The notes under the pieces are model-generated. The model saw only the letters and a list, made by a program, of their open reading frames with translations. It was not told the DNA's origin and did no database searches. Position numbers and translations under genes: made by a program. From the IMG/VR virus record IMGVR_UViG_3300035698_006921, positions 1 to 20,846 of that record: 20,846 nucleotides of DNA. One strand, written 5' to 3'. The stretch comes from a virus. Positions 1,994-20,323 of the stretch are shown here, one piece after another (position 1 is the first letter of the stretch; the number at the start of each line of letters is the position of its first letter).

Positions 1994-2023
1994 TTGACTT
2001 TTTTATGTTTTGTTGTATATTTG
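1994..2023 (+). promoter_or_regulatory. Strong Bacteroidota-type promoter of the structured RNA
   Basis: TTGAC at 1994-1998 and a perfect -7 element, TATATTTG at 2016-2023, are separated by 19 bases counted from the TTG. This is the canonical Bacteroidota vegetative promoter arrangement. The predicted start, 5-7 bases past the -7 element, falls at about 2028-2030, which is the first base of the long RNA stem described next. Confidence 0.7.
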
Positions 2024-2027
2024 CCCC

Positions 2028-2179
2028 TGACTTACAGTTGATCTTCAGGGGTTATATCCTGAAACATTTAGTTTAATAATATAGCAAAGCTGCTAAGATG
2101 GTGTCAGAGGAAACGACGGCACTGGTTTCTCGCCCCGCGATTAACTGTAAGTCACATCTAAGGTAGCTTTGCTTTTTTT
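2028..2179 (+). ncRNA. Probable structured small RNA or RNA switch of about 150 nt, pseudoknotted, undescribed as far as I can tell
   Basis: No protein frame fits this interval, but it is highly self-complementary. Stem A pairs 2028-2043 with 2139-2154: 15 Watson-Crick pairs and one G-U. Stem B pairs 2083-2091 (AGCAAAGCT) with 2165-2173 (AGCTTTGCT), and 2096-2100 (AGATG) with 2155-2159 (CATCT), with G-U pairs and a small internal loop between. B starts inside the loop of A and closes outside it, so both together make an H-type pseudoknot whose two 3' arms are directly adjacent. Smaller hairpins lie in the loops (2044-2049 with 2058-2063; a bulged one at about 2107-2131). A promoter ends just before stem A and seven T residues follow stem B. 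I do not recognise the fold as tmRNA, 6S RNA, RNase P, a retron RNA or a known riboswitch. Confidence 0.6.
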
Positions 2180-2180
2180 A
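2165..2180 (+). terminator. U-tract terminator of the structured RNA
   Basis: The 3' arm of stem B (AGCTTTGCT) runs straight into seven T residues at 2173-2179. This resembles an intrinsic terminator, except that the matching 5' arm is over 70 bases upstream, so termination may depend on how the RNA folds. The downstream gene could then be reached only by read-through. Confidence 0.5.
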
Positions 2181-2200
2181 TTTACTTAAATTCTTTTATA

Positions 2201-2737
2201 ATGACTTACAAAAAGAATCAAAACGAGGCCGTAAGCCTTGAAGTAACTAAGGGTTTGACGGTTACAATCCTTCCGAGTTCAGACCACGAGTTTCTAATGA
2301 CCACAAAAGAAGTGGCGAAAGGTTACGGCATACACCCCGCGACACTTAGGAGACACTATCAAAATCATGCTGATGAACTTATTGAAGTCAAGCATTATTT
2401 GAGCAACGTTCAAATTTTACACGCTGCTTCAAAATCAGGGAGTTCAAGAACGACTATGTGGACAAAGCGCGGGATAATTCGCCTGGGCTTTTTTATCAAA
2501 AGCCGGCAGGCACGTTTGTTCAGAGATTGGGCAGAGGATTTAATCATTAAACGGATTGCGCAGCCGCAAACTGATTTGTTTGGCGAGCATGTGCGGCAGT
2601 TGCCCAAGCGGCGCAATCATAACCGGCTATCGCCAGATAGGTTGGTGAGCATATTGGCTGATGTGGCCATGGTTGAAAGCCAGCAACTACGAGAAAGCCT
2701 TATTGAAAAACTGTTAATGAAAGGAGGTGAAGCATGA
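2201..2737 (+). CDS. Phage antirepressor-like / Bro-N-like DNA-binding protein
   Basis: This is a 178-residue protein. Residues about 32-60 (MTTKEVAKGYGIHPATLRRH) look like a helix-turn-helix. Residues about 85-115 carry the pattern TxWTKRGIIRLGFFIKSRQA followed by RLFRDWAEDLI, which matches phage antirepressor (Bro-N/P22 Ant N-like) proteins, where a WTxRGxxRL...A..FRDWxED signature follows the DNA-binding part. The C-terminal 50 residues are basic, then helical. Such proteins counter repressors or switch phage gene expression. The start lies 21 bases after the U-tract of the structured RNA, has no Shine-Dalgarno sequence, and bases 2202-2210 repeat the first nine bases of that RNA. The gene heads a three-gene coupled operon and overlaps the next gene by four bases (ATGA). 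Confidence 0.65.
   Translation: MTYKKNQNEAVSLEVTKGLTVTILPSSDHEFLMTTKEVAKGYGIHPATLRRHYQNHADELIEVKHYLSNVQILHAASKSGSSRTTMWTKRGIIRLGFFIKSRQARLFRDWAEDLIIKRIAQPQTDLFGEHVRQLPKRRNHNRLSPDRLVSILADVAMVESQQLRESLIEKLLMKGGEA
2720..2730 (+). promoter_or_regulatory. Near-perfect Shine-Dalgarno sequence
   Basis: AAAGGAGGTGA at 2720-2730 is fully complementary to the 16S rRNA 3' end and lies three bases before the ATG at 2734. It also encodes the KGGE tail of the upstream protein. Such sites are rare in Bacteroidota, and most other genes in this window lack one. Confidence 0.8.
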
Positions 2738-3156: not shown

Positions 3157-3188
3157 AAAAAAGCCCCCGAATTTCGGGGGCTTTTTTT
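3157..3188. terminator. Bidirectional intrinsic terminator between convergent operons
   Basis: An eight-pair GC-rich stem (GCCCCCGA at 3163-3170 with TCGGGGGC at 3174-3181, three-base loop) is flanked by an A6 run on the left and a T7 run on the right. It can therefore terminate transcripts from both strands. It lies between the rightward small-gene operon and the leftward head-gene operon. The T-run overlaps the stop codon of the leftward gene by two bases. Confidence 0.9.
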
Positions 3189-3699
3189 ATGTTCTTACAA
3201 TGCTAACACTTGGCTTTATCACCTCTGGCACTTGCTCATGCAAGTCGGTAAGTTCGGTTATTGCGCTGGCATCTTTCAGCGTGGTTTTAAATAGCAATTG
3301 GTATTCCCTTATGCCATCGTCTCTTTTGTTACGCCTCAGGCCTACCCTTGTTAGTGTTCCGTAGTGGCTGTTGGCCTTGTGCCAGCCGTGTAGGCTCGTT
3401 TGTAGTGTTTGGCATAGCTCAAACACCTTTTCGCTGTTGGTGCGTTGTGTGGCAGTGGCGCGTTGGCTGCTTGGCGATAAGCGCAAAGCTGCCACCCTAA
3501 TCAGCACCGTTAGCTCAAGCAATTGCACAAGGCTGCCTACATTGCTTGGTTTGGCCTCAACAACATCTACCAGTGCCGTTGGCCACTTGGTTGGCGGGTT
3601 GGTGCTATAGTCGTCCAGCTGCCCCCAGTCCTCATCAATGTATTTGAAAAGTGCTAGCGAGTCTATTCTCTCTCTAAGGTCGTTTACCAATGTTTGCAT
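3187..3699 (-). CDS. Mu gp37-like / tail-terminator-like protein (tentative)
   Basis: The 170-residue product is the last gene of the leftward operon, directly after the gpG-type morphogenesis gene. It has the general pattern of neck or tail-terminator proteins: an N-terminal helix, a WPTALVDVVEA strand near residue 39 (compare the FPxVLI segments of such proteins), a QLLELTVLIRVAALRL strand pair, a helix leading to LHGWHKANSHYGTLTRVGLR, and a C-terminal strand REYQLLFKTTLKDAS. This fits proteins that cap the tail at the head-tail joint. Sequence alone does not settle the role, and a general minor head-tail protein is the alternative. The start is ATG. Confidence 0.5.
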   Translation of the reverse strand: MQTLVNDLRERIDSLALFKYIDEDWGQLDDYSTNPPTKWPTALVDVVEAKPSNVGSLVQLLELTVLIRVAALRLSPSSQRATATQRTNSEKVFELCQTLQTSLHGWHKANSHYGTLTRVGLRRNKRDDGIREYQLLFKTTLKDASAITELTDLHEQVPEVIKPSVSIVRT

Positions 3700-19486: not shown

Positions 19487-20323
19487 ATGCTTATCAAAAC
19501 CATATCCGTAAAGCCCTTTCAATCTATTGTGAACATCGCAATACAAGAGTATCGGACAGTTCGTGGTGTTTACACCTTACTGGCTTACAATCAGGACAAG
19601 CTGCACAGCATCACCCAGGAGCTGGAACCCGGCATGTTGCTCGAAATTCATCCTATTGTCGAAGATTGGCGCGGGCTTATAAAAACACCTGTAAGGATGC
19701 CGTTTCTTGTGCATGAGTGGCAAGATATTGTTTGCGCTCAAATAGAAAGCGGAGGTTACAATCACAGCTGGAGCGGTGTAGTTTGCGTTAAACAGTTGCC
19801 GGCGGCTTACACGCACAGCTGGAAAAATCCGGTTTGCGTTCAGGCTTATGACACTTACACACACAGCTGGCGCAACGTGGTTTGTGTGAGTAGGCAGGAA
19901 GCGCAATTTAGTGCGATGTGGTTAGATGCAATTTGCGTCCAGGCTCCTGGAAATGCCTTCAGCTCAAACTGGATAGAAACTGCTTGCGTGCAAATACCCG
20001 GCGATGCTTATCAGGCAGCATGGAGTAACATAATTTGTGTGCAAACCCAAGCTGCCTTATATACCTCAGAATGGAAGATTGACACCTGCGTACAAGTTCC
20101 AGCTGACCTATACAGCTACGACTGGAAGCTAACCGCTTGCGTGCAAGTTCCGGCAGATGAGTACAGCTACGACTGGAACTTAACCGCCTGCGTGCAAGTT
20201 CCGGCAGATGAGTACAGCTATGGCTGGACGGAAACCACCTGCGTACAAGTTCCTGCGGCCACATACAGCGCACGCTGGGGGGATACAATTTGTGTACAGG
20301 AAACTACATTAGAATCAACATAA
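19487..20323 (+). CDS. Tail-associated protein: LysM/gpX-like N-terminus plus 12 Trp/Cys repeats
   Basis: The first 60 residues (VKPFQSIVNIAIQEYRTVRG, LEPGMLLEIHP) resemble the small LysM-like tail protein X domain. The remaining 200 are an array of 17-residue repeats with consensus xxWxxxxCVQxPxxxYS. Trp occurs at 78, 95, 112, 128, 145, 162, 179, 196, 213, 230, 247 and 264, and Cys exactly five residues after each. A degenerate unit at Trp61 lacks the Cys. The even spacing suggests a stack of short beta strands or hairpins. It lies between wedge and baseplate genes, so a baseplate or receptor-contact role is likely but inferred. I do not recognise the repeat. No signal peptide or membrane segment is seen. 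Confidence 0.7.
   Translation: MLIKTISVKPFQSIVNIAIQEYRTVRGVYTLLAYNQDKLHSITQELEPGMLLEIHPIVEDWRGLIKTPVRMPFLVHEWQDIVCAQIESGGYNHSWSGVVCVKQLPAAYTHSWKNPVCVQAYDTYTHSWRNVVCVSRQEAQFSAMWLDAICVQAPGNAFSSNWIETACVQIPGDAYQAAWSNIICVQTQAALYTSEWKIDTCVQVPADLYSYDWKLTACVQVPADEYSYDWNLTACVQVPADEYSYGWTETTCVQVPAATYSARWGDTICVQETTLEST
19712..20320 (+). repeat. 51-base coding repeats, 12 units
   Basis: Each unit encodes 17 residues (one unit, ending before Trp128, has 16). The units near the 3' end, roughly 20071-20230, are almost identical in DNA (for example GTGCAAGTTCCGGCAGATGA twice), while early units have diverged. This suggests ongoing expansion from the C-terminal side. Confidence 0.9.

Follow-up and report, generated by a model that had tools for sequence, protein, structure and literature searches.

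A probable C4-class antisense RNA module of a divergent c4-2 branch upstream of a Bro-N-like gene in a Mu-like Bacteroidota phage

The window, by which we mean the whole stretch of 20,846 nucleotides analysed, is a 20.8-kb Mu-like phage fragment on a viral contig in which Mu F-like, Mu portal and Gp36 are present. Near one end it carries a promoter followed by a sequence able to form two long crossing stems (S1 and S2) and a U tract, and a gene for a Bro-N-like protein starts 21 bp past that tract. The features of the locus are as follows.

1994-2023, plus strand: sigma-A promoter of the Bacteroidota type, with TTG at 1994-1996, N19 and TATATTTG at 2016-2023; predicted transcription start at 2028
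2020-2027, plus strand: 'up' segment TTTGCCCC, spanning promoter and pre-start sequence; complementary to 'mid' and present in the RNA only if transcription starts upstream
2028-2043, plus strand: 5' arm of S1, at the 5' end of the RNA; a copy of the target, analogous to P1 a1/b1, proposed to mask the antisense
2044-2063, plus strand: 'mid' hairpin UUCAGGGGUUAUAUCCUGAA; 68.8% of cells paired, three pairs with two-sided change
2083-2100, plus strand: 5' arm of S2, the outer stem of a C4-like body, from the c4-2 alignment; 95.6% of cells paired, two-sided changes in 9 of 10 pairs
2101-2122, plus strand: P3 hairpin with a GGAAAC-type loop; 90% paired, two-sided change in 4 of 5 pairs
2130-2140, plus strand: P4 hairpin, UCGC-CCC-GCGA; 92% paired, loop covarying with mid
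2139-2154, plus strand: 3' arm of S1; antisense core UGUAAGUCA at 2146-2154
2155-2173, plus strand: 3' arm of S2, directly abutting the antisense
2173-2179, plus strand: U tract, with S2 a possible intrinsic terminator; present in half of the loci
2190-2218, plus strand: target hairpin AUUCUUUU...AAAAGAAU, start codon and target in the loop; from 0/20000 permutations and the fold
2201-2737, plus strand: gene for a Bro-N-like, antirepressor-like protein of 178 aa; Pfam Bro-N E=3.6e-4, below the cut-off, and PHROG
2202-2210, plus strand: antisense target UGACUUACA, overlapping the Bro-N start codon, its first U being the U of AUG

The 178-aa protein matches PHROG anti-repressor families with a best E of 2.5e-6, a weak match, as is that to Pfam Bro-N, and a search of solved structures with the Bro-N profile returned no match. 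The gene adjoins the late genes, and Mu has its late activators at the corresponding place, so the protein may not be an antirepressor. The middle of the domain (alignment A1, columns 48-85) is strongly variable while its flanks are conserved, a pattern that, to judge from the sequences, would suit a specificity region.

Searches with the Bro-N-like protein and an alignment of its relatives yielded 122 loci on viral and bacterial contigs. A geometric search with hand-checked registers then placed the element directly upstream of the Bro-N gene in 42 of these, 34 of which count as distinct by their antisense cores. The covariance model built on 16 sequences (R1) found a single sense-strand place per scoring locus, at the gene. 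When phage records were searched at the DNA level with the RNA as query, all that came back were short, AT-rich matches attributable to chance. No relatives of the upstream 192-aa and downstream 66-aa ORFs were found by search, and the 170-aa ORF retrieved a single distant relative that was uninformative. Four loci (L030, L039, L065 and L071) hold a second sub-family upstream of the Bro-N ORF, with another S2, a 5' copy CTAAGT, an antisense ACTTAG and a target GTCTAAA that sits from a few to about 30 nt before the ATG, not at it. Two loci (L012 and L014) have a Bro-N relative without the RNA; roughly 60 nt before the ORF they carry an inverted repeat, GTCGTTGACTAAGTTTAACGACG, that resembles a DNA operator taking the place of the RNA.

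In Flavobacterium transcription start maps the TAnnTTTG box lies at -12 to -5 (PMC9723704), which puts the predicted +1 exactly at 2028, the first base of S1. The first-pass annotation had given the promoter as TTG-N19-TATATTTG with a start at about 2028-2030; its coordinates were right, and the Flavobacterium offset selects 2028. TAnnTTTG is present in 31/34 distinct loci, and S1 begins 3-4 nt 3' of TTTG in 32/34. The earlier proposal of a discrete pseudoknotted phage RNA with promoter and ends coinciding with its stems is supported.

As the same annotation had described, S1 (2028-2043 with 2139-2154) comprises 16 pairs, one of them G-U, and is crossed by S2 (2083-2100 with 2155-2173), the 3' arms abutting; the innermost 2 bp of S1 overlap the small P4 hairpin. 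A pseudoknot-free fold of the window RNA has z = -3.2, and none of 200 shuffles folded as well. Both stems recur with changed sequence in the 42 homologous loci, and without exception no more than 0-1 nt lies between their 3' arms, which argues that the structure is not due to chance. Covariation was assessed in an alignment of the 16 closest sequences, with shuffling and sliding as controls. In this alignment 87.7% of cells pair, compared with 65.1% after shuffling (0/500) and 33-42% when the arms are slid, and the outer helix of S1 is paired in 97.5% of cells and S2 in 95.6%. Compensatory changes, which had been suggested as a check on both stems, are present, with two-sided changes in 30 of 45 pairs; arms changing without compensation, named beforehand as a refuting outcome, are not what the family shows. 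The seven U residues reported 3' of S2 are there in the window, but only 17/34 loci have a run of at least five, and a terminator there is accordingly not shared by all members.

What had been overlooked in an otherwise accurate anatomy is a complementarity between the 3' arm of S1 and the beginning of the adjoining ORF: UGUAAGUCA can pair with UGACUUACA across the Bro-N start region. The exact target 9-mer has no other occurrence in the window, and the RNA always immediately precedes its target, at a distance of 31-52 nt. The antisense and target sequences differ from locus to locus, yet each antisense still matches its own target. With a fixed register, positions 3-8 are all paired in 32/34 own combinations and in 11/1122 foreign ones, a test that is biased, since the positions were chosen with the own target. 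It was therefore repeated with re-optimised positions, and 8/8 pairs then form with the own target in 30/34 cases, as against 4/204 for foreign and 3/136 for shuffled targets. In three loci (L029, L057 and L073) contiguous pairing with the target is limited to 4-6 pairs. The 5' arm pairs with the antisense at positions 3-8 in all 34 distinct loci.

Conservation of the coding sequence was considered as the cause of this match and rejected. In L016 and L081 the ATG at the target place is lost (ATT and AAG) and the first ATG lies downstream, but complementarity is kept, which indicates that conservation does not act on the N-terminal peptide. The arms of the target hairpin also differ in sequence between loci, and in 0/20000 permutations did foreign arms pair as well as own ones. 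No second, b2-like target was seen on inspection by eye.

The first-pass annotation had held that the RNA fits no known family. Indeed, no Rfam family scores over its cut-off in the window. Rfam c4-2 (RF02944) matches over its full model (positions 1-79) at 2088-2170 with 16.2 bits, a chance-level score against a cut-off of 41, and the outer stem, inner GG/CC stem, P3 and P4 follow in c4-2 order over that whole length. Two direct homologues, however, do exceed the cut-off (L029 with 53.5 bits and L057 with 41.8 bits). Below it, L005 reaches 30.3 bits (E = 7e-5), and apart from L029 and L057, 12 of the 41 records score 15-35 bits. In the reverse direction R1, trained on a set with L029 and L057 in it, recovers the full-length c4-2 RNAs L136 and L137 (E = 5e-6 for L136). 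The window RNA is thus a distant homologue of c4-2, not a member by Rfam's rule, and the claim that it fits no known RNA falls. The guess that it might be a regulatory sRNA was right in kind; we found no support for a decoy or an antitoxin-like RNA. Plain C4 (RF01695) was rejected as an assignment, with 0/41 records over its cut-off of 45 bits and a best score of 15.2 bits elsewhere in the record.

The body shared with c4-2 consists of the outer stem S2, an inner AUGGUGG/CACACCUAA stem, P3 with GGAAAC and a small P4. Strong Bacteroidota members of c4-2 likewise have a 5' copy, an antisense and a target copy at an ATG, and part of this layout may be known already. The Rfam model spans only S2 to S2 (79 positions) and leaves out the 5' arm as well as pseudoknot and target. 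Whereas most strong c4-2 RNAs carry a variable antisense in the P4 loop plus UAGGA, the window family has one continuous antisense strand that abuts S2 and forms 14-16 bp with the 5' arm. The inspected strong members also adjoin small chromosomal ORFs, not Bro-N.

The order of elements also recalls the C4 and c4-a1b1 RNAs of P1 and P7 (RF01695, RF03163), namely promoter, a1/b1, C4, a2/b2 and a regulator including an antirepressor. In the P1 record this order is promoter, a1, b1 (annotated as putative), c4, a2, b2, icd and ant1/ant2. In P1, a' lies immediately next to the outer stem's 3' strand; pairing of a1 with a' therefore gives, together with that stem, the topology of S1/S2. The window family differs in having one antisense over the start codon, where P1 and P7 have two segments around the ribosome-binding site. 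It has no icd in between, its host phylum and promoter type are different, and its 5' copy starts at the transcription start site. Without C4, ant is not fully repressed (PMC8198154). According to the available part of PMC5320573, P1 C4 is released by RNase P, and P1 and P7 are set apart by a 4-nt difference. The same part describes chromosomal Group 1 C4-like sRNAs of Acinetobacter baumannii, which have the C4 fold with a variable specificity segment, number several per genome and are cut from longer transcripts; it describes no adjoining target copy, and they are set beside the window RNA here by description.

The architecture, its covariation, the locus-specific match of antisense and target and the homology to c4-2 are shown by the sequences, the last two with good support. 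Taken together, we consider it probable that the element is a C4-class antisense RNA module, of a divergent c4-2 branch, in a Mu-like Bacteroidota phage, and that it blocks translation of the antirepressor-like gene. A transcript from its own promoter would start at 2028, and its 3' half (2083-2179) would fold into a C4-like body closed by S2, leaving UGUAAGUCA as a single strand just before the 3' arm of S2. The antisense would then pair with UGACUUACA, displayed in its hairpin loop, and thereby block translation initiation of the Bro-N gene. Being a copy of the target, the 16 nt at the transcript's 5' end would mask the antisense as S1. Unmasking would probably occur by cleavage 5' of S2, by analogy with RNase P and P1 C4, or alternatively through an up/mid hairpin that traps the 5' arm in transcripts from upstream. 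Antisense/target pairs are specific to each phage lineage. A prophage RNA would therefore be expected to shut off the matching gene in a related phage entering the cell, and a phage with another pair would be expected to escape.

The 5' arm is the weaker partner in this arrangement. At positions that distinguish the 5' arm from the target, the arm almost always has U opposite G and the target C (17 versus 4 positions, in 15 versus 3 loci). Over the same segment, antisense:target pairing is stronger than antisense:5' arm pairing in 15 loci, weaker in one and equal in 16 (sign test, p = 0.0005). This wobble bias is absent from the window itself, in which the 5' arm equals the target over the 9-nt core. 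A systematically weaker upstream copy is as expected of a removable mask, on sequence grounds. It suggests a function for the upstream a1/b1 copy, only 'putative' in P1, in masking the antisense by a pseudoknot.

The sequence around the start site may hold a further switch. GGGG at 2048-2051 in mid can pair either with the P4 loop or with up. The up segment TTTGCCCC, which includes the -7 box, pairs with AGGGGCAAA of mid in its own locus better than in other loci (0/20000 permutations), and mid and the P4 region also match (1/20000), up and P4 having no special match to each other. TTTG lies upstream of the start, so an RNA can contain the up-mid pairing only if transcription enters from upstream, and a same-strand ORF lies upstream in 26/34 loci. 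In the predicted fold of a read-through transcript the up/mid hairpin forms and S1 is lost, while the body and a free antisense remain; for an RNA trimmed at S2, most of the antisense is predicted to be single-stranded. These models make it conceivable, though we hold the idea only tentatively, that the transcription start site sets antisense activity and that the RNA signals which of the phage's promoters is in use. Transcripts of the local promoter, beginning inside the masking arm, would form the pseudoknot and cover the antisense. Read-in RNA carrying UUUGCCCC would form the up/mid hairpin, trap the masking arm and expose the antisense. To our knowledge, such promoter-reporting logic has not been described for C4.

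Several of these features bear on whether a diffusible RNA is involved at all. The element could act only in cis, as a 5' UTR belonging to the Bro-N mRNA, the start codon being free when S1 is formed and covered by the 3' arm when S1 is open. Its constant place 31-52 nt upstream of the target and the single sense-strand R1 place per locus would suit such a leader, and with a run of at least five U residues in only 17/34 loci the RNA may often run into the ORF. In half of the loci, however, S2 is followed by a U tract, and the MFE fold of the trimmed mRNA contains no cis pairing between antisense and target. The target sits in a hairpin loop of its own, as expected for intermolecular loop contacts, and the characterised relative, P1 C4, acts in trans. 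On balance we regard a leader switch confined to cis as unlikely.

A C4-type antisense RNA also accounts better for the data than two other readings. Were the repeats repressor operators around promoter and start codon, with the RNA structure a by-product, the covarying inverted repeat of up and mid over the -7 box (TTTGCCCC/GGGGCAAA) would be explained. Against this, the crossing of S1 and S2 is that of an RNA pseudoknot, P3 and P4 covary, G-U pairs are used throughout, and the up-mid spacing varies between loci, which suits an RNA loop rather than a fixed operator; we judge a DNA-level element very improbable. An unrelated new sRNA family with targets elsewhere, its match to the adjoining ORF incidental, would agree with the lack of an Rfam match over cut-off in the window. 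We give it next to no credence in view of the homologues over the c4-2 cut-off and of the locus-specific complementarity, 30/34 compared with 2% for foreign or shuffled targets.

If the antisense reading holds, a C4-type RNA switch, of the kind that holds such phages dormant, is placed in the Mu-like phages of Bacteroidota, in which lysis/lysogeny control is poorly known. New in this variant are the continuous antisense over the start codon, the long masking arm beginning at the transcription start site, Bro-N as a target in these phages and a candidate start-site-dependent switch. The 34 natural antisense/target pairs are available for specificity tests, and the Rfam c4-2 model can be extended at both ends.

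RNAs over the c4-2 cut-off occur in 9/396 Bacteroidota genomes, and most of the copies inspected there have one copy behind a promoter, an antisense in the RNA and a second copy ending at an ATG. Some chromosomes hold up to six such RNAs (L126-L155, L161-L164). Those inspected adjoin a small uncharacterised ORF with the target copy at its ATG, the ORF families including one of 77 aa (L136:1604-1837) and one of 93 aa (L161:1665-1946), and from their sequences these loci look like C4-type modules. Upstream of position 1501 in L126, L128 and L136, the 5' copy precedes an ATG and a short leader ORF extending into the c4-2 body, with the possible consequence that translating the leader disrupts the RNA.

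Weak Rfam matches to mir-6, NPPA-AS1_3 and leaders near 3160-3190 were rejected as chance or terminator matches. Elsewhere in the window, a strong two-way terminator, GCCCCCGAATTTCGGGGGC, flanked by A and T runs, lies at 3160-3190 and separates the convergent early and structural operons. The 278-aa ORF at 19487-20323 contains many tandem CVQ..YS..W units of about 20 residues each and is probably a tail-related repeat protein.
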